Part shown: one piece after another, positions 1 to 56,999 of the stretch
Layout: each line of letters begins with the position of its first letter
Numbering within the stretch: the stretch's first letter is position 1
NCBI GenBank assembly: GCA_902803315.1
Contig: CADCPM010000037.1
Span: 1-64,000 of the forward strand
DNA length: 64,000 nt
Reading direction: 5' to 3'
From: an uncultured Coriobacteriaceae bacterium
GTDB lineage: Bacteria; Actinomycetota; Coriobacteriia; Coriobacteriales; Atopobiaceae
Made by a program: the position numbers and the translations under genes
The notes under the pieces: model-generated
What the model was told of the DNA's origin: nothing
The model's database searches: none
What the model saw: only the letters and a program-made list of their open reading frames with translations

Positions 1-1
1 A

Positions 2-78
2 TGGTGGGCCTGACAAGGCTCGAACTTGTGACCTCCCGGTTATCAGCCGGACGCTCTGACCAACTGAGCTACAGGCCC
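2..78 (-). tRNA. tRNA-Ile (GAT)
   Basis: Read on the minus strand, the sequence folds as a complete 77-nt cloverleaf with a 7-bp acceptor stem (GGGCCTG with CAGGCCC), discriminator A and an encoded CCA tail. The anticodon loop reads CTGATAA, giving anticodon GAT for isoleucine. The T-loop TTCGAGC and the D-arm GCTCAGTTGGTCAGAGC are normal. It is transcribed away from the gene that follows. No rRNA genes are visible in the few bases before it. Confidence 0.95.
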
Positions 79-166
79 ATCCGCAACGAAATACATTACC
101 CGAGTTGCATGGGTTAGTCAAGTGAAATCTCAAAATTCATTTGTCTTTTTCGTTGCGAGGGGTAGA

Positions 167-676
167 ATGTTCCGCATGGCACTCATTCGTATGGACATAC
201 AATCAGTGGTTGTGGGCGCAGGTCCCGTTGCGTCGGTGGTCGTGCTCAAGCCTCGACACAGCGACTCTAGCGCTAAGCTCCCCATCCGCATTGGGACGTT
301 CGAGGCGGCAGCCATTAGCATGGGCGTCGACGGGCGCAAGCAGAAGCGTCCCACGACGCACGATCTGCTGCAAAACGTCATCGCGGAACTTGGCGCCAGC
401 GTTACTAGCGTGGTTATAAACAACGTGCGCGACACGACCTTCTTCGCCCAAGTGTGCATGAGAAACGCGCAGGGGGAGAGCCTGAGCATCGACGCGAGGC
501 CCTCTGACGCGCTTGCCCTTGCCGTACGCACGCACGTTCCCGTGTTCGTGGAGAGCGACGTTTTTTCGGCCGCGACGCTTCCGGATTTCTCATCGGTTGA
601 GCGGGACCAGCGCGAGCAGGAAGCACAGGCATTCCACGACTTCGTCGAGGGCTTGTCTCCCGAAGACTTTTCGTAG
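167..676 (+). CDS. Bifunctional nuclease family protein (DUF151)
   Basis: A 169-residue protein of the DUF151/BFN family (PF02577). The core is recognisable: an N-terminal strand IQSVVVG, then LPIRIGTFEAAAI, a helix THDLLQNVIAELG, strand VTSVVINNV with FFAQV, and the signature SIDARPSDALALAVR followed by VPVFV. Plant and Thermotoga members have been described as nucleases or wound-response proteins, but the bacterial role is poorly known. A GTG 45 bases upstream is in frame. I chose the ATG at 167 because GAGGGG sits just before it. The acidic C-terminal tail is typical of actinobacterial members. The gene stands alone: the tRNA upstream is on the other strand and an inverted-repeat array begins 24 bases after the stop. 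Confidence 0.85.
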   Translation: MFRMALIRMDIQSVVVGAGPVASVVVLKPRHSDSSAKLPIRIGTFEAAAISMGVDGRKQKRPTTHDLLQNVIAELGASVTSVVINNVRDTTFFAQVCMRNAQGESLSIDARPSDALALAVRTHVPVFVESDVFSAATLPDFSSVERDQREQEAQAFHDFVEGLSPEDFS

Positions 677-700
677 CCCTACCGCTGCCCAACCAGGCTT

Positions 701-983
701 GCGAAGTCTGTAACCGGGCACACAAAGTCTGTAGCCCCTCTCGCAAAGTCTGTAACCATCATTGCAAAGTCTGTAGCTCGGCTCGTAAAGTCTGTACATT
801 TCTGAATAAATATCAAATTCGACAACTGCTTTACCTGCGGTTTTGTAAAGAGTTCACATATTTCCCTACAGACTTTAGCCGAAAGATTACAGACTTTGCG
901 AGAGGGGCTACAGACTTTGTACGAGGCGCTACAGACTTTGCAGGAACGATTACAGACTTTGTCGCGGGCGACAGAGGTTTTGC
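701..983. repeat. 21-bp-period inverted iteron array 1
   Basis: Five copies of a 13-mer close to GCAAAGTCTGTAG start at 701, 722, 743, 764 and 785, an exact 21-bp period with variable 8-bp spacers. After a 68-bp gap (798-865), the reverse complement CTACAGACTTTGC recurs at 866, 887, 908, 929 and 950, with a decayed sixth copy near 971. The gap holds TTTACCTGC at offset 33. The 8-bp spacers are mostly not complementary between arms, so conservation of the 13-mer looks more like protein binding than pure RNA pairing. It lies downstream of the nuclease-like gene at 1039-2106. A near twin lies on the other side of that gene. Confidence 0.95.
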
Positions 984-1038
984 AACGCATTGTTCACTGG
1001 CGCATCCAGGAAGACGCCATCCTTCGGTCCAACCACAC

Positions 1039-2106
1039 TCAAAGACCCGAGGTTCCGAATCCGATGCTCTTGCGCTTTTCTCTGAAGTAGCGAAGTCTTT
1101 TCCTTGCCTCGGACGAGCTCACGTAGGGGTCAAGCGACATGATCTCGTCCCTGAGTTCCCGTTGCAGATTCATGTATCCCTGCGTCAGGGACGGCACTTT
1201 TGCGCCCAAAGACGGCGCAAGAACCCCACGTATTATGCGATCGAACTTAAGTGTGTCATTCATGTTTTCCGTTCGCAGGGTAAGGGCCGTCCAATCGTCT
1301 TTTACAAACGCCTGAATTCGCAGGTCGTCAACCGAAAGACGCGCACTGTCCTGGTGATTCTCCCAACTGTCATACTCTAAAAGGGTCTTATGGTCATACC
1401 AACACAAATCTGGAGTTATCTCCGACATTCCCACAATGGCCGCAGCTTCGGGAGACAAATGCACCTTTCGGTTGAGTTCTGGACGCTCCAACTCGTATCC
1501 GCCCATCATGGGTGGCAAACTGATGAGCAGGGGCGCTATGGACTCCCTCGGCGAGCGCGACCCCTCCAAACACATGTCGAGAGCGCGGCGCGCCGTTGCG
1601 GCGCCGTGAAACCTCCTTGTGCTATCAACCATATGCCGCAACGATTCCAGCGACGTGAGTGGTTTTCTCTCCAACAGGCTACGCTCGTCGTTGGGAGCAA
1701 TGGAGTAGTTTCCACACAACATCATGCCCACAGTCGCGAGCTGCACGTCGGTAAGGACACTCCCCAGCTGGACAAATGTGAGTTCGGGAGATGAGATGAA
1801 CACATGCTCGGTAAGACGGCGCAGGCTCCCAGGCGGAAGTTTTCCCTCTCGGAGGTGACAAGTGAAGAGGTCTGACTTGAAGGTGCGTCCATGGGCTGGT
1901 ACCAGCACGTCGAGAGGTGCGGGGAGCTTCTGCATAAACTTGCTCTCAAGAAGCCCCTCGCCAAGGATGGTGGTCGGGTTCTTTGCCGCCGCTCCCACGT
2001 CTTGAATATCCGTTTGGGTTTGCGGCAGCAGGCCCTTGTGTCCGATCACCGCCCAACAGGCGAGTGCGGACACGTGACTGAGGTATATGTTCGTATAAGT
2101 ATCCAT
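1039..2106 (-). CDS. AbiEi/DUF559-like nuclease-fold protein, paralogue 1
   Basis: A 355-residue protein, paralogous to the genes at 36574-37773 and 55764-56999. Shared landmarks, in order: LDVLVP near 65, SPELTFVQLG near 106 to 115, MLCGNY near 129, a helix with SPRE near 185, a GGY...RPELN segment near 202 to 212, then PDLCW (D233), LLEYDS (E244, Y245, D246) and H251. The last part resembles the PD-(D/E)XK core of DUF559/Vsr-type nucleases. The whole layout recalls actinobacterial proteins with an AbiEi-like N-terminal part. A basic tail follows residue 300. No toxin partner lies next to it. The upstream DNA is AT-rich and both sides carry 21-bp inverted arrays, which suggests acquisition as a unit. 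Enzymatic activity is inferred only. Confidence 0.6.
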   Translation of the reverse strand: MDTYTNIYLSHVSALACWAVIGHKGLLPQTQTDIQDVGAAAKNPTTILGEGLLESKFMQKLPAPLDVLVPAHGRTFKSDLFTCHLREGKLPPGSLRRLTEHVFISSPELTFVQLGSVLTDVQLATVGMMLCGNYSIAPNDERSLLERKPLTSLESLRHMVDSTRRFHGAATARRALDMCLEGSRSPRESIAPLLISLPPMMGGYELERPELNRKVHLSPEAAAIVGMSEITPDLCWYDHKTLLEYDSWENHQDSARLSVDDLRIQAFVKDDWTALTLRTENMNDTLKFDRIIRGVLAPSLGAKVPSLTQGYMNLQRELRDEIMSLDPYVSSSEARKRLRYFREKRKSIGFGTSGL

Positions 2107-2436
2107 GGCGCAACCATACCCAACCTATTGCGCGGAAATTGCGCTTATAGCGACCGCATACTTCCCCGCTGAATCACGATATTTGGGTGTGACGTGCGAA
2201 AATGCGGTCTGTTCCAAAATGCACTGATGCTTTTTGGAATTTTATGGCTACGTTTCTCCATCTTTTGAGCACATTTGACCTGCGATTATATGTTTTCAAA
2301 TTTTTTGTATGCAAATTGCATAATCAGTGCCTAATTTTTATGCAGTAATCCGCTTGTTTATGCATAAATGAATGTTGAATACTTTGTTGAAAAATCAAAA
2401 CGCACTCAGCGATAGAAGATTCCCGCTCAATCACTC
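2107..2436. other. AT-rich upstream region of paralogue 1
   Basis: No gene is visible in these 330 bases. The stretch is clearly richer in A and T than the flanking gyrA side and contains runs such as CAAATTTTTTGTATG, which suggests imported DNA. A small hairpin, TTCCAAAA...TTTTTGGAA, lies near 2212-2241. The string GTTCCAAAATGCA also occurs near 36184, upstream of the second paralogue. The promoter of the 1039-2106 gene should be here, but no convincing -35/-10 pair was found. Confidence 0.5.
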
Positions 2437-2740
2437 GCAAAGTCTGTAGCCCGCCTCGCAAAGTCTGTAGCCACGCCCACAAAGTCTGTAGCGTTTCGAA
2501 CAAAGTCTGTAACCTGGATGGCAAAGTCTGTAGTGCCCAGAGTAAAGTCTGTAGATATTTAAAAGCTGTTTAGGAGAAGCATACGGTTTACCAGGTGTTT
2601 TATATAAAGGTCATTTTTAGTTCTACAGACTTTGCTGCCTAAATTACAGACTTTGCCAGGGAGATTACAGACTTTGCGAGGCGGGCTACAGACTTTGCGA
2701 GGCGGGCTACAGACTTTACGAATAGGGGTACAGACTTTGC
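2437..2740. repeat. 21-bp-period inverted iteron array 2
   Basis: Six copies of GCAAAGTCTGTAG-like 13-mers start at 2437, 2458, 2479, 2500, 2521 and 2542, every 21 bp. After a 68-bp gap (2555-2622), six inverted copies start at 2623, 2644, 2665, 2686, 2707 and 2728. Gap length and period match array 1 exactly, and TTTACC again falls at gap offset 33-38. The right halves of the two gaps also align (TTTACC, then GTTTT, TA, AG and TCA at the same positions). The two arrays therefore form a same-orientation pair enclosing the nuclease-like gene. Confidence 0.95.
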
Positions 2741-2811
2741 ACATGGTGTGGCCAGCGACGTGGCCAGAGGCGTGCCCAGCGACGCGGCCGGACAGAACGC
2801 TGACCCAAGCA

Positions 2812-2849
2812 CAGAGGCCCCTCCCCGGCGAAGCGGGAAGGGACCTCTG
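2812..2849 (-). terminator. Probable gyrA transcription terminator hairpin
   Basis: On the minus strand, AGAGGTCCCTTCCC pairs with the later GGGGAGGGGCCTCT around a GC-rich loop, about 55 bases after the gyrA stop. No T-run follows, so it may be a Rho-assisted or processed end rather than a classical intrinsic terminator. Confidence 0.55.
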
Positions 2850-2902
2850 CAGTGTCTAGGCCCTCGTGGGAAAGGCCAACAAAACGGCATCGAACGTTAA
2901 GG

Positions 2903-5728
2903 TTACTCGTCCAACAGCGACTCGTCAAATTCCTCGTCGCCGCCGACGTCCACGTTGTCAGGATCGTCCATGTCGCCACCGGCGGCCGCGATGTCGAGCA
3001 CCGCCTGCGCCTCGCCGGCACCGGCACGACGCTTGGGCGCCTTCTTCTTGCGCGCGATCATGCGAGCCATGGCGCTCACGCGGTCGCCTTCGCTCAGGTT
3101 CATGATCTTGACGCCCTGGGTCGCACGGCCCTGACGCGAGATGTCCTCTGCCTTGACGCGTATCATAACACCGGCAACGGACACAATCATGAGCTCGTGC
3201 TGCGGGCCAACCACTCGGCACGCCACCAGCTTGCCCTTCTTCTGGGTCATGGCAATGGTAAACACGCCCTGACCACCGCGATTGCGGACGGGATACTCGC
3301 TCACCGCCGTGCGCTTGCCAAAGCCGTTCTCGGTGATAACGACGAGGTCGCCCTTGCCGTTGCTTATCTCCATGCCCAGCACGCGCGCGTCGTCCTTGAG
3401 GGCCATGCCGCGCACGCCGCTGGTGTCGCGGCCCATCGAGCGCACCTGGCTCTCGTCGAACACGATCGCCTTGCCGTCGGTGCTGCACAGGATGACCCTG
3501 TCCTCGGACTTCACGCGGCGCACGCCCACCAGCTCGTCGCCAGCCTTGAGCTTGATGGCGATGAGCCCGCCGGAGCGGTTGACGTCGTACTCGGCCATAG
3601 CCGTCTTCTTCACCATGCCGGAGGCGGTGGAGAACATGAGGTACTCGTCCTTGGGGAAGTCGCGCGCGGCGATGACGGCCATGGGATGCTCGCCCTCTGC
3701 CAGGTTGAGCACGTTGACAAGTGCCGAGCCGCGGGCTTGTCGGCTACCGAGCGGCAGCTCGTGCACCTTGAGGCGATACACCTTGCCCTTGTTGGTGAAG
3801 AACAGCATGTAGTCGTGGGTGCTCGCCACGAACAGGTCCTCGACGTAGTCGTTGTCCTTGAGCGACAGGCCCCTCATGCCCTTGCCGCCCCGCTTCTGCG
3901 AGCGATAGGTGGCCACCGGCAGGCGCTTTACGTAGCCTGCGTGGGTGAAGGTCACGACCATGTCCTCCTCGGCGATAAGGTCCTCCACGTCCAGGTCCTC
4001 GGCGCCCTGCGCGTTGATCTGCGTGCGACGCGGGGTGGCAAAGCGCTCGGAGATCTGGCGCAGCTCGTCCTTGATCACGCCCAAGAGCTTGTCCTTGTGC
4101 TCCAGGAGGTCGGTGTAGTAGGCGATCCGCTCGCGCAGGTCCTCGATCTGGGCCACGAGCTGGTCGCGTGCGAGTCCCGTAAGGCGGCGCAGGCGCATCT
4201 GCAGGATGGCCTCGCACTGAACCTCGTCCAGGCCAAAGCGCTCGTTCATGCGGCGCTTGGACTCCGCGTCGTCGCGCGAGCTGCGGATGATGTGCACGAT
4301 CTCGTCGATGTTGTCCACGGCGATGAGAAGACCCTCGCGGATGTGCAGATCCTTCTGCGCCTTGGCGAGGTCGAACTGCGTGCGCCTGGTGACAACGTCC
4401 ACCTGGTGATCGATGTAGTGGCGCAGCATCTCGGGAAGCGTGAGGGTGCGCGGCACGCCGTCCACCAGCGCGATGTCTATGACGCCGAAGTTGGCCTGGA
4501 GCTGCGTGCGCTTGTACAGGTTGTTCAGGACGACCTGCGGCACCGCGCCGCTCTTGAGGTCGATCACGATGCGCATGCCCTTGCGGTTGGACTCGTCTCG
4601 CATGTCGGAAATGCCCTCTATGCGCTTCTCGTTTACCTGCTGGGCGATCTTCTCCTGCAAAAGACCCTTGTTCACCTGATACGGGATCTCGGTGACCACC
4701 AGGCGCTGCCTGCCGCCGCGGCCCACGCTCTCCACGTGCACCTTGGAGCGCACCGTAATGGAGCCACGACCCGTGGCATACGCGTCGCGGATGCCGTCGG
4801 TGCCCATGATGATGCCTCCGGTGGGGAAGTCCGGACCGGGAAGGACCTTCATGATTTCTTCCAGGGAGGCGTCGGGGTTGTCGATAAGAAGGCAGACGGC
4901 GTCGATGACCTCGCCCAGGTTGTGGGGAGGCACGTTGGTGGCCATGCCCACCGCGATTCCCGACGAGCCGTTTACCAGCAGGTTGGGAAAACGTGCGGGC
5001 AGCACGGCCGGCTCGGACAAGGACTCGTCGTAGTTGGGTTGCAGGTCAACGGTCTCTTTGTCCAGGTCGCGCAGCATCTCCATCGCGGCATGCGTGAGGC
5101 GCGACTCCGTGTAGCGCATGGCCGCCGGGGGATCGCCGTCCACGGAGCCGAAGTTGCCGTGGCCGTCCACGAGCGGCAGGCGCATGGAGAAGTCCTGCGC
5201 CATACGCACCATGGAGTCATAGATGGCCGAGTCACCGTGCGGGTGGTACTTGCCCATAACCTCGCCGACGGTCCACGCACTCTTCTTATGCGGGCGCGTG
5301 GGCACGATGTGGGCCTCGTTCATGGCGTACAGGATGCGGCGGTGGACCGGCTTGAGGCCGTCTCGCACGTCGGGCAGTGCGCGGGCCACGATGACCGACA
5401 TGGAGTACTCGAGGAACGAGGTCTTCATTTCGGACGCCATCTCGATGGGCTTGAGCGCGCCGCCGTGGATGTCGGTGAGGTCCAGCCTCGTGCCAGCCTC
5501 GTCGGATATGGTGTGACTCAGGTTCGCGCCCGCAAGGTTGACAGAACCCTGCTCGGGCGGATAGTCGTCCTCCATCTCGTCGTACACGTCGGAGGGGTCC
5601 TCGTCGTCGCGCTCGGGATCCACCTCCATGTCGTGCATGGCGCGATTTACGAGGTCGTCCAGGTGGTCGCGCCCGTCGGGACCGCGCAACTCGTCCTGGT
5701 TCTCGCTGTTGTTCGTCTCGTCTGCCAA
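2903..5728 (-). CDS. gyrA: DNA gyrase subunit A
   Basis: A 941-residue GyrA, the breakage-reunion subunit of DNA gyrase. The catalytic tyrosine is Y206 in AAMRYTESR. The quinolone-resistance region reads [11 protein letters not shown] with S167 and D171, equivalent to E. coli S83 and D87, so it has the susceptible-type residues. The GyrA box [12 protein letters not shown] and the C-terminal beta-pinwheel repeats are present, with an acidic tail. Relative to E. coli there is an N-terminal extension of about 84 residues that is strongly acidic ([19 protein letters not shown]). The start codon is TTG, supported by AAGGAGAG upstream. It follows gyrB in the same direction, separated by 149 bp containing a large hairpin. 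Confidence 0.98.
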
Positions 5729-36406: not shown

Positions 36407-36468
36407 ATTTCGCAGTATGTTAGCACAAAAGCCAACAAGGGGACAGGGTCTTGTTAGCCTTATGTCTC

Positions 36469-36544
36469 GAATTACCGACAGCTGCAATTTCGCCATGCAG
36501 CCAACAGGCATTTTATGGCTCTATAATTCAGCTGTCGGTAATTC
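36469..36544. repeat. Palindromic element E1 (GAATTACCGACAGCTG arms)
   Basis: Arms GAATTACCGACAGCTG (36469-36484) and CAGCTGTCGGTAATTC (36529-36544) are perfect complements, with a 44-base centre. Read on the minus strand, the centre begins AATTATAGA, like E3, and has a 20-base deletion relative to E2 and E3. It ends 30 bases before the start codon of paralogue 2. A separate small hairpin (CAACAAG...CTTGTTAG, about 36433-36458) lies just upstream. Confidence 0.95.
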
Positions 36545-36573
36545 GCCAATTCGCCAGTGGAAAAGAGCGCCAA

Positions 36574-37773
36574 ATGACAAGCCCATACGACGATCCAGAA
36601 GGAAAAACCTACGCCCTTGTAAGTCACGAATCCGCCGTCGAGGCGATTTGGTCGCTGGCTGCGCGTGGTTGGAAGGGCGTGCTGTGGGACGAGGACATTT
36701 GGCTCGTGCCTGCTGCCGCTAGCTGCGTTACGACCCAAGGCGATTTCAAACAGCTGGCCAGTGAGATCGATCTTTTGTCATTTGGCATTTACAAAAGGCC
36801 CGTCGACCTTTTGGTTCCCAACAAGTCGTGCTACTCCCGTGGGAAGTCTGCACGGTTTCATGTGTGGAGGGACTTCTTTCCGCCCAAGTCGTTCGTGCGT
36901 GTGCACGACCGTGTGTTTGTGAGCACTCCCTACTTTGCCACCGTGCAGCTCGCAGTGGCAAAGCCTGCAAGTCGTCTATCGAAGGAACGGGCGCAGCAAT
37001 CTGCCGAACTTAGCGACCGCCTGTGCAAAGAAGCTGGCCTTAACGGATCAAGCCCTACGGCCAAGGACCTTCTTGCTTGGGAGAACATCGAGCGATTCGT
37101 TCGGGCGACCCAAGTGCTCTGTGACTTTATGGGTACGTACAGATATGTGCCCGTGTGCGAAGAGAACGAGACGGTCGAGTGGGACGTTGTGTTTAAAACG
37201 AAGCCTATCGTGAGTCGCACCAAGCTTGTGGACTATCTTAGACAAATGCCTGCAAGCAAGGGGATAATGCGGACCCGCAAGGTGGCTGACGCAGCGTTTG
37301 AGGGTCTGGCGTCTCCCATGGAAACCATGCTCGCGCTTGTGCTGTCGCTCCCAACGAACATGGGCGGCTTTGGTCTGCCGCGTCCGCAGGTGAATTACGA
37401 GATTAAAGTAGGTGAGGAGGACAAGTCGATTTCGTCACAGAACGTAATGTATGCAGACCTCTGTTGGCCGGACCAGCGTTTGGTGGTGGAGTACTACGGT
37501 TGGGACGAGCATTTTGGTGCTGGAAAACACAAGGTCGCAAGCGATGCCAATCGTTCTAATACGCTCTCGGCGCTTGGGTGGACCGTACTTCATGTTACCT
37601 ACGAGCAGATAAGAACGACGGAGGGCATCTCGTTGCTGGCACGGCAGATCGCGCGCTGTGTGGGAGAGGCGCTGGAAGTTCCAACGGAGCTCGAGCAGAT
37701 TTGGCGCGTGAGGCTTGTGTCGATGCTACTGCCTCCTTTGCTTCCGAAGGAATTACCGACAGTTGAAATATAG
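36574..37773 (+). CDS. AbiEi/DUF559-like nuclease-fold protein, paralogue 2
   Basis: A 399-residue paralogue of the genes at 1039 and 55764. The N-terminal 110 residues look like an AbiEi-type winged-helix/linker region (VSHESAVEAIWSLAARGW, PVDLLVP and ARFHVWRDFFPP). The middle has VSTPYFATVQLAV and SPMETMLALVLSLPTNMGGFGLPRPQ in segments. The nuclease-like core is ADLCWPD (D295), VVEYYGWDEHF (E306, H313) and GWTVLHVT. An Asp of the other copies is Tyr here. The ATG at 36574 lies 30 bases after palindrome E1. The last codons (KELPTVEI) are written by the left arm of palindrome E2, so gene end and repeat overlap. No toxin-like partner is adjacent. Confidence 0.65.
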   Translation: MTSPYDDPEGKTYALVSHESAVEAIWSLAARGWKGVLWDEDIWLVPAAASCVTTQGDFKQLASEIDLLSFGIYKRPVDLLVPNKSCYSRGKSARFHVWRDFFPPKSFVRVHDRVFVSTPYFATVQLAVAKPASRLSKERAQQSAELSDRLCKEAGLNGSSPTAKDLLAWENIERFVRATQVLCDFMGTYRYVPVCEENETVEWDVVFKTKPIVSRTKLVDYLRQMPASKGIMRTRKVADAAFEGLASPMETMLALVLSLPTNMGGFGLPRPQVNYEIKVGEEDKSISSQNVMYADLCWPDQRLVVEYYGWDEHFGAGKHKVASDANRSNTLSALGWTVLHVTYEQIRTTEGISLLARQIARCVGEALEVPTELEQIWRVRLVSMLLPPLLPKELPTVEI

Positions 37774-37845
37774 GCATTATGCATGTGGTATTTACCTGCG
37801 AATATAATGTATAAAACAAATAGGATTTGCAGCTGTCGGTAATTC
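37750..37845. repeat. Palindromic element E2
   Basis: Arms GAATTACCGACAGTTG (37750-37765) and CAGCTGTCGGTAATTC (37830-37845), one mismatch, with a 64-base centre containing TTTACCTGCG and TATAATGTATAAAA. It overlaps the 3' end of paralogue 2. Centre length and central sequence match E3. Confidence 0.95.
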
Positions 37846-55417: not shown

Positions 55418-55552
55418 CTGGCTACACCGAGAGTCTGATTCGAACCTCAGCTTAGTATAGACGTATATTCCTGAAGCATGACTTAGGATTGTCCCGCTGC
55501 CTATGATGTGCTTCAAAAGCATAGAGCATACAGTTTGGTGGATGCGTTACGG

Positions 55553-55753
55553 CTTCGTGTAGTTTGCGGCTTATATTTGCCAGTTTTATCGCATATTGCA
55601 CGGTTTTTGAGTGAGAGTCGTACGGAGCGATAGTATTGAGCCTTGCTAAGATGCAGGTAGAAGGGTCAAAAATGCGGGCCCGTAAAATCCGCTATTCAAA
55701 AACTGTGCAACATAGGCTAAAATTGGCAATTCCAAGCCGCAAATTACACGAAG
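55553..55753. repeat. 58-bp-arm inverted repeat upstream of paralogue 3
   Basis: Arms 55553-55610 and 55696-55753 match as reverse complements at 48 of 58 positions (both begin CTTCGTGTA and TTTGCGGCTT, both end GTTTTTGA). The 85-base interior contains, on the minus strand, CTACCTGCAT, like the core of elements E2 and E3. It ends 10 bases before the start codon of the nuclease-like gene. The promoter of the divergent HD-GYP gene lies to its left in 55418-55552. Confidence 0.93.
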
Positions 55754-55763
55754 CAGGAAACTC

Positions 55764-56999
55764 ATGGCAGACTACAAAGCGAAGGGCGGGGAGCGAACGA
55801 CCGCACCTTCTTCGGACGAGCAGATTGCCAGCACGAACGCACTGGTGCTCGACGGCCCGTCGGCCTTGGCGCTCTATCGGGATCGAGATGACCTAAAGGC
55901 GGGCTTGCAACAGCGCGACAAACCGTCGGAGCCCGTTGTTCGCTTTGACGAAGACGCCGAAGACTTTTGGCTGTCAGACGAGGACTTGGCAATGACCCTT
56001 TCCGGCGAGAGCATATTCAGCGACTTTAGCAAAAGCAAAGACGATGCGTACCTCGAATCGGACGGCGAAACCCTGCCACCGCTCGTACGATCCTCCATGA
56101 CTCGCATGAGAAAAGCCGCGGCACGTTCGCGTGACCTTAAGCAGGTACCCTACGAGACGCTCGGAATCCGACCTCCCGCACACAGCTCGCCCCTTTACCT
56201 GCTCGTACCGCAAGTCGGGCGCCGTCGCTCGGTAAAGCACGTAAGTCAGCGACTTTGTCGCACCACGTTGCCCGAGCGATCGTTTTTGCGGCTCGGCAAC
56301 AAGGTTTACGTGCCGACGCCGGAACTCACGTTTTTGCTGATGGCGCATTACCTCGAACTGCACCAACTCATAGTCCTGGGCATGGAACTATGCGGCTTTT
56401 ACCGCCTGGTTGGCGCGGCAACCCAAAGTCCGCTCGTCTCGAACCGCACGCTCTACGGACGGGCGCCGCTCACCACGCCGCACCGCATTGCGGCATTTCT
56501 CGATCGAGCCAGCGGCGTAACGGGGTTACCGCTTGCGAAAAGAGCGCTCTCATACCTAGAGGCAGGGTCCGCATCCCCCATGGAAACAGCGCTCTATCTG
56601 CTCCTTTGTCTCCCACGGAAGCTAGGGGGCTATGGCCTGCCGCATCCACAGCTCAACGCGCGCCGGCAGGTGACGCCACGCGCCGGCTCCTTTACCCTAA
56701 GCAAATCGCTTGTGCCCGACCTCCTCTGGCCAGATGCGCGCCTCGACCTGGAGTACGACAGCGAGGAGTTTCATGCATCGGAAGATGCTCTGCAAAGGGG
56801 TGCGCGTCGCGCCTTGGCCTTGCGAGCCATGGGCGTCGAGGTCGTGTCGGTAACCAAGGAAGTGGTGTACGACAAAGCTGCGTTTGACACATTGGCGCGC
56901 ATGGTGGCAAAGGCGATTGGCGCCCGCGTTCGCAAGCTAACGGAGTCGGGTGAGTGTGAGCGCCAACTTTTGCGCCAGACGACGCTCTTTGCGGAATGA
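55764..56999 (+). CDS. AbiEi/DUF559-like nuclease-fold protein, paralogue 3
   Basis: A 411-residue paralogue of the genes at 1039 and 36574. The first about 110 residues are an acidic extension (FDEDAEDFWLSDEDLAMT). Then come SSPLYLLVPQ, VPTPELTFLLMAHYLELHQ, GMELCGFYRL and SPMETALYLLLCLPRKLGGY, followed by GLPHPQLNARRQV. The nuclease-like core is VPDLLWPDARLDLEYDSEEFH (shown in two parts: D319 in VPDLLWPD; E330, Y331, D332 and H337 after it). The ATG at 55764 follows AGGAAA and lies 10 bases beyond a 58-bp-arm palindrome. No partner gene is adjacent. Activity is inferred. Confidence 0.65.
   Translation: MADYKAKGGERTTAPSSDEQIASTNALVLDGPSALALYRDRDDLKAGLQQRDKPSEPVVRFDEDAEDFWLSDEDLAMTLSGESIFSDFSKSKDDAYLESDGETLPPLVRSSMTRMRKAAARSRDLKQVPYETLGIRPPAHSSPLYLLVPQVGRRRSVKHVSQRLCRTTLPERSFLRLGNKVYVPTPELTFLLMAHYLELHQLIVLGMELCGFYRLVGAATQSPLVSNRTLYGRAPLTTPHRIAAFLDRASGVTGLPLAKRALSYLEAGSASPMETALYLLLCLPRKLGGYGLPHPQLNARRQVTPRAGSFTLSKSLVPDLLWPDARLDLEYDSEEFHASEDALQRGARRALALRAMGVEVVSVTKEVVYDKAAFDTLARMVAKAIGARVRKLTESGECERQLLRQTTLFAE

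Follow-up and report, generated by a model that had tools for sequence, protein, structure and literature searches.

The window analysed here is a 64-kb stretch from a draft genome (G000; 2.95 Mb in 122 contigs, 87% complete) of the family Atopobiaceae, in a host group of uncultured gut bacteria. We take it to be the gyrA-gyrB-recF-dnaN-dnaA region, the gene names being assigned from the sequences except for BFN, which was named by a domain match. Near its left end, two arrays of short repeats (iterons), each made of two opposed halves around a central gap, enclose a single gene:

122..676, plus strand: BFN, Bifunctional nuclease domain protein, left neighbour of array 1 (domain match)
703..960: array 1, five forward and five inverted iterons AAAGTCTGTA with a period of 21 and a 70-bp gap at 797-866
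821..846, minus strand: core of array 1, ACAAAACCGCAGGTAAAGCAGTTGTC as read on the minus strand
1039..2106, minus strand: gene of a 355-aa protein, the only long ORF between arrays 1 and 2, with a predicted Vsr/DUF559-like nuclease fold in its C-terminal half
2439..2738: array 2, six forward (2439-2544) and six inverted (2624-2729) iterons with a 70-bp gap at 2554-2623
2578..2603, minus strand: core of array 2, degenerate ATAAAACACCTGGTAAACCGTATGCT, matching the seed motif at 15 of 26 positions
2903..5728, minus strand: presumably gyrA (from protein sequence and place), right neighbour of array 2

Two opposed arrays and the enclosed gene

Both arrays are real and far above chance expectation: the longest exact 21-bp chain within positions 1-4500 has six copies, versus one in each of 50 dinucleotide shuffles. 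The forward iterons of array 1 lie at 703 (one mismatch), 724, 745, 766 and 787 and the inverted ones at 867-951, and every step in the two arrays is exactly 21 bp. Our counts agree with the preliminary description of this locus, which had reported five forward and five to six inverted copies in array 1, six and six in array 2, a common 21-bp period, a single gene flanked on both sides and the hexamer TTTACC at offset 33 of both gaps. This hexamer is part of a conserved core, and the cores of the two arrays point the same way. The central gap is indeed the same in both arrays, at 70 bp between the innermost 10-mers rather than the 68 bp first given, which counts one base more per side.

The enclosed gene had been called AbiEi/DUF559-like. 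The 355-aa protein has no match in Pfam, NCBIfam or PADLOC, AbiEi included, and the first half of that label is not supported. The second half holds weakly by sequence, as one of nine family members, a paralog, touches the Pfam DUF559 model below its cut-off (17.9 versus 20.6 bits), and holds better by fold. An AlphaFold2 model built from 4 sequences has a mean pLDDT of 52, with 57-86 per block of ten over residues 151-320. Residues 185-301 of this low-confidence model align with I-Bth0305I at a Z of 8.3 (rmsd 2.4, 96 of 97 residues), a value that may reflect a common arrangement, with mitoribosomal proteins scoring just below that row (Z 7.7-6.8); Vsr follows at 6.8 and 6.1 and then TnsA at 5.3. 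Foldseek returned no significant match for the model (best E 0.12), and a search by sequence profile reached this I-Bth0305I entry at E 0.36, among unrelated hits. The C-terminal half therefore models, at low confidence, as a Vsr/I-Bth0305I-type (EDxHD) nuclease-like fold, and the family would combine such a domain with a divergent N-terminal part. What is shared with I-Bth0305I and other Vsr-like (EDxHD) homing endonucleases is the fold of the catalytic domain as judged by structure comparison. In contrast to those enzymes, no intron or split target gene was seen here, and sites lie on both sides of the gene and elsewhere.

A genome-wide set of arrays

The iteron AAAGTCTGTA occurs 69 + 72 times in G000, versus 0 + 3 times for the reversed control. 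Eleven more arrays of this kind were found beyond the two described earlier, giving 13 in total (12 complete and one half array at a contig end), and two single iterons fall outside arrays. The sister species (G065) has 13 arrays, one with an 89-bp gap, and a third species of the genus (G068, assembly 88% complete) has six. All 12 complete G000 arrays have a same-place counterpart in the sister species: for eleven of them there is a G065 array whose flanks match, and for array 1 the corresponding array is at locus L009 of an Atopobiaceae MAG from sheep jejunum (JAFWKQ01). The neighbours of the arrays are assorted genes in mixed orientation, among which we noticed no flanking gene common to the arrays.

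We compared 28 arrays from the three genomes, obtained with a search that allowed gaps of 69-71 bp and left out the 89-bp G065 array and two G068 arrays. The gap is 70 bp long in 26 of them and 69 bp in two. The best position of an asymmetric core motif is offset 30 in 27 arrays and offset 29 in the remaining one, the fit being weak (12-16 of 26 bases) in ten of the 28. Each half holds 2 to 10 iterons, with variable outer ends and a constant centre; arrays of this genus measure about 150-390 bp, at 6-13 copies per genome. Among 226 iteron units chosen at no more than two mismatches, 224-226 agree at eight of the ten bases and 223 and 210 at the other two. Gap length remains steady at 69-70 bp (81-82 bp in a second genus) despite orthologous cores averaging only 65% alike (11 pairs), compared to 52% for non-orthologous cores. 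The ortholog was the best core match in eight of the 11 pairs and ranked 4, 5 and 12 in the other three, the last case pointing to replacement from another locus. The 11-nt spacers that separate the 10-mers agree to within one base in 77 of 419 pairs from the same half, 16 of 491 pairs from opposite halves and 106 of 24,515 pairs from different arrays, which suggests local duplication with some exchange between arms. Iteron, 70-bp gap and off-centre core are thus the conserved elements of the arrays, and the spacers turn over.

Several known kinds of repeat were considered. The arrays are open in frame (LQTLxxx heptads), yet the iteron keeps its bases even where a protein-coding repeat could change them synonymously, which indicates that constraint acts on the DNA. 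An RNA hairpin appears not to fit, as the spacers of the two halves fail to pair rank by rank (by eye). CRISPR arrays consist of direct repeats with unique spacers of about 30 bp; the spacers here are 11 bp long between 10-mers, often repeated and set in two opposed halves, and the earlier statement that no CRISPR explains the locus holds. Array 2 had no blastn match at E 1e-5 among 72,556 plasmid and 50,697 phage records, and no replication or partition gene was noticed by eye beside the arrays. A viral origin was rejected: two of the three viral-contig matches of an iteron pair (L095, L096) contain short clusters of similar repeats without opposed arrays and core, and the 22 matches of a second pattern read as coding or terminator-like. 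Regarding the features of an insertion sequence or MITE, the outer ends of the arrays vary and the empty junctions in relatives are too diverged for a target duplication to show (by eye). Plasmid iteron origins and ParR/StbA-type centromeres are likewise built of direct repeats in helical phase, in two sets around a central region. The arrays share this layout and differ in being chromosomal, present in many copies and opposed.

An alternative is that the arrays are chromosome-organising sites, centromere- or anchor-like, that are bound by an unrelated DNA-binding protein and for which the enclosed gene is a late guest. We consider this unlikely. The same-place counterparts in the sister species and the intergenic positions among unrelated neighbours in mixed orientation are what such sites would be expected to show, as is the presence of four of the 13 G065 arrays on one 133-kb gyrA contig (at about 57.1, 64.6, 84.9 and 86.6 kb). 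Against it, the strand of the core bears no consistent relation to GC skew (20 sites), the arrays were not found in 13 of the 16 genus members and many copies were present in only four of 395 genomes of the order (two patterns), a narrow distribution that is odd for a housekeeping function. It also leaves unexplained the other arm types that surround a similar core beside paralogs of the enclosed gene (see below).

Distribution of gene and arrays across genomes

Exact iteron pairs were found in three of 140 genomes of the family and three of 395 genomes of the order, all in one genus. A sequence model run on the 140 genomes (E <= 0.01) added one genome of a second genus (G081, 68% complete) and one weak match in a third genus (G113). 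A looser pattern matched 16 of the 395 genomes, with many matches in G000, G065, G068 and G081, seven in G138 and one each in 11 genomes. The single matches look like chance, as the reversed control yields similar numbers, and those of G138 stem from an unrelated 52-bp repeat.

The 355-aa gene was detected at E <= 1e-40, a cut-off that leaves weaker family relatives uncounted, only in G000 and G065 among the 16 genus members. Two members of the genus therefore have the gene with near-perfect arrays, one (G068) has decayed arrays with no detected gene and 13 have neither. Exact iterons account for 15 of 27 in G068 (four of its six arrays counted), compared to 134 of 141 and 107 of 114 in the two gene-bearing genomes. 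The absence of the gene from G068 could reflect its incomplete assembly (88%) or divergence past the 1e-40 cut-off.

A one-to-one pairing of arrays and gene fails, the preliminary description having named arrays mostly without the gene as grounds for refutation: only two of the 13 G000 array sites flank the 355-aa gene, and for the other eleven a tblastn search of 6.5-20 kb of surrounding sequence detected neither a family gene nor the remains of one. Because the arrays form a genome-wide set, most of them stand without the gene. Within the genus, the gene was found only together with arrays (2 of 2 genomes), and gene and arrays are nonetheless linked across genomes.

The junction occupied in the window was compared across relatives. 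In four array-less genus members (L081, L083, L084, L093), gyrA and BFN adjoin each other in convergent orientation and no array separates them, and the other BFN loci that we examined, some of them ending short of gyrA, had no array by period scan or array model. In G068, where BFN had no match at E <= 1e-30 in the 88% complete assembly, one array adjoins an apparent 3' fragment of BFN (L114, 1165-1452) that is fused to other sequence, and a family gene lies 3.4 kb from this array. G081 has nine array cores, with iterons like GAAGTCGGTAG, gaps of 82 bp (81 in one) and GCAGGTAGAT-like cores. Two of its arrays lie between BFN and gyrA, at the same junction as in the window, with no gene between them. 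Two others enclose a 378-aa family member (phmmer 5.6e-30 against the window protein, among nine sequences) that adjoins ribosomal protein genes, as read by eye; the cores of these two are 81% alike, and each is 42-68% alike to the others. The enclosed gene thus recurs at another locus in another genus. In the third genus, one minimal site with CGAGTCTGTA arms and a GCAGGTAGAT core was observed (L173, at about 5800; single and weak, E 0.004).

Such pairs could alternatively represent a transposon-like element of the form array-gene-array whose ends are the arrays, with solo arrays as remnants or non-autonomous copies. The two arrays that enclose the family gene in G081 are inverted copies of each other (85% complementary over 123 nt), and paired arrays without a gene occur in the same genome at the gyrA junction and at L169, both in keeping with this reading. 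It nevertheless appears improbable to us, since it is the centre of the arrays that is fixed and not their outer ends (from 2 to 10 iterons in each half), the cores of both window arrays are oriented alike, the solo G000 arrays come without gene remnants and the positions common to different species argue against recent movement.

LytTR regulators recognise 9-bp direct repeats 12-13 bp apart. The period of 21 bp is therefore the same, the iteron AAAGTCTGT fits eight of nine positions of the consensus, and one array lies between a LytTR gene and its kinase. A LytTR regulator was rejected as the special binding factor: the three genomes searched that lack arrays have two of the LytTR groups as well, and among all six genomes searched no LytTR gene was both common and special to the three with arrays. 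The C22-type LytTR DNA-binding domain looks alike in G000, G068 and the array-less G075, and the third LytTR gene of G000 and G065, which has a small membrane-protein neighbour that we take to be DUF3021-like, is of another type in G068. This pair of genes was observed in both array-rich species (L155 on G000 contig C24, L156 on G065 contig C71) and was not seen among the LytTR matches read in four other genomes.

Paralogs, their inverted sites and a putative site system

Two paralogs of the 355-aa gene, absent from the preliminary description, lie in the same window, each with its own, different inverted sites:

36451..37773, plus strand: paralog, 440-aa open frame, family match to the 355-aa protein
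36469..36544: inverted pair GAATTACCGACAG / CTGTCGGTAATTC with a 50-bp gap, at the 5' end of the 440-aa paralog, no clear core
37750..37845: inverted pair GAATTACCGACAG / CTGTCGGTAATTC with a 70-bp gap and core TTTACCTGCG, at the 3' end of the 440-aa paralog
55552..55754: inverted arms of 59 nt with an 85-bp gap and core GCAGGTAGA, directly upstream of the 411-aa paralog
55764..56999, plus strand: paralog, 411 aa, family match to the 355-aa protein

Ten loci in G000 hold family members, obtained from 13 matches by merging those that were split or duplicated; two of them (L028 and L030) contain an internal stop. In the family tree, whose deep branches are poorly supported and in which L026 is in the wrong frame and should be ignored, the two array-enclosed proteins are not supported as a clade (branch support 0.108). 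The inverted arms of several family members are private to each, and the core that they surround is similar (AAAACCSCAGG-like). Around such a GCAGG-type core, the arms are CTGTCGGTAATTC beside the 440-aa paralog, the 59-nt arm beside the 411-aa paralog, CTGTCAGTAAATT... at L030, GGGAAATGAATC at L033 and CCCAAAATCACACT at L034. A core with short arms lies 30 bp past the gene end at L029, inverted repeats with a poor or absent core were found at L026 and L028, and no clear inverted site was found at L035 and none with a core for two G068 family members. The L033- and L034-type sites recur once each on contig C57 with no family gene in the surrounding 20 kb, so that two arm types besides AAAGTCTGTA are found once each away from a family gene. 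The L033-type site on C57 is at the same place in G065, and the L034-type site lies outside the comparable stretch.

An inverted site with core was found within 300 bp of seven of 13 family genes and of 14 of 168 control genes (Fisher p 1.1e-4), in a comparison built after some sites had been seen and not independent of them, as the core was defined partly on sites near family genes. Without the two dispersed iteron types, the control count becomes 5 of 168. Family genes with no match were L028, L029 and L035 (3 of the 10 G000 paralog loci), both G068 paralogs and the G081 gene, the latter because its start had been set downstream of the array. When cores were shuffled, 12 decoys gave 0-13 sites with arms (mean 4), compared to 20 for the real core; of these 20, at least three (L041:1193, window 31512, L040:19640) are not arrays of this kind, and the known AAAGTCTGTA arrays make up most of the remainder.

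Some of these sites lie directly upstream of paralogs (window 55552-55754; L030), and AbiEi-type antitoxins are reported to bind promoter inverted repeats (PMC7319586). Each family protein might accordingly be a regulator whose operators are the iterons beside its own gene and those of a small regulon. This seems rather unlikely, since sites are downstream of other paralogs (L033, L034, window 37750-37845) and the dispersed arrays lie between convergent, tandem and divergent genes alike by crude gene calls, for example at window 676-1039, where two genes meet 3' to 3'.

Conserved sites at many places are associated with one nuclease-like family. The explanation that we favour, though we hold it at somewhat less than even confidence, is that the arrays are the cognate DNA sites of the 355-aa protein, a member of a multi-copy Atopobiaceae family, and that these sites are kept up in a REPtron-like manner. 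Binding of a protein to the arrays is plausible, and binding of the arms by the cognate protein, action at the core and upkeep by the protein are all putative. The 355-aa protein would occupy its iterons, which are in helical phase along a single face of the DNA, in two opposed arrays, and would so offer the core to the nuclease-like domain; nicking, site-specific exchange or copying could follow. In this way the protein would maintain a modest number of chromosomal sites, much as has been proposed for TnpA-REP and REPs. Sites would hold their position over the divergence of species, spacers would turn over via tandem duplication and exchange between the two arms, and sites would decay once the gene is lost.

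The closest parallel in way of working would be the REPtron, from which protein fold and site form differ. A REPtron is a single-copy gene for a DNA-cleaving protein beside its own palindromic repeats, which are also dispersed intergenically and vary with the protein group (PMC8266576). Similarly, the same, putatively cognate iteron is found at the 355-aa gene and at 11 other places in G000. The differences are that TnpA-REP is an HUH (HUH/Y1-type) single-strand transposase, whereas the 355-aa protein has a predicted Vsr-like fold, and that REPs are 20-50-nt palindromes preceded by GTAG in hundreds of copies, whereas the sites here are opposed 21-bp iteron arrays with a 69-82-bp gap and an asymmetric core.

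More tentatively, it is possible that each protein of this Vsr-fold family reads its private iteron arms and that all act on one common core. One chromosome would then hold several populations of dispersed sites side by side, without cross-reaction between them and each dependent on a single-copy gene of its own, in a REPtron-like arrangement with a different nuclease and modular site recognition. Arrays and nuclease-like genes together may represent an undescribed kind of site system. Among the open-licence papers listed for this iteron, Atopobiaceae intergenic repeats, chromosomal iterons and DUF559 with repeats, none was relevant, and to our knowledge few bacterial systems besides TnpA-REP/REP link a nuclease gene present in one copy to a dispersed set of sites of its own. 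A genome with several paralogs that differ in their arms and have a similar core offers a natural panel for studying DNA choice by such proteins, the maintenance or loss of a set of sites and any part that the sites have in shaping the chromosome. The two further family members within the same 64-kb window make the system readily testable.

Other repeats and rearrangements were observed along the way. Tandem 52-bp units with AAGTCCGTA/TACGGACT palindromes follow another type of tandem repeat in G138 (L183, about 1440-1810); they differ in form from the arrays and are also palindromic. Window 31512 and L041 1193 belong to another dispersed short inverted repeat that contains GGGACAGTCCCC-like sequence. 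On contig C56, the gene sequences L026/L027 and L030/L031 occur twice in opposite orientation, which suggests a large inverted duplication or an assembly fault. Finally, three types of inverted site lie within 9 kb on contig C57 (L040; 0.9-1.1, 5.9-6.2 and 9.5-9.9 kb) with no family gene in 20 kb, a cluster that is possibly a hotspot of such sites.
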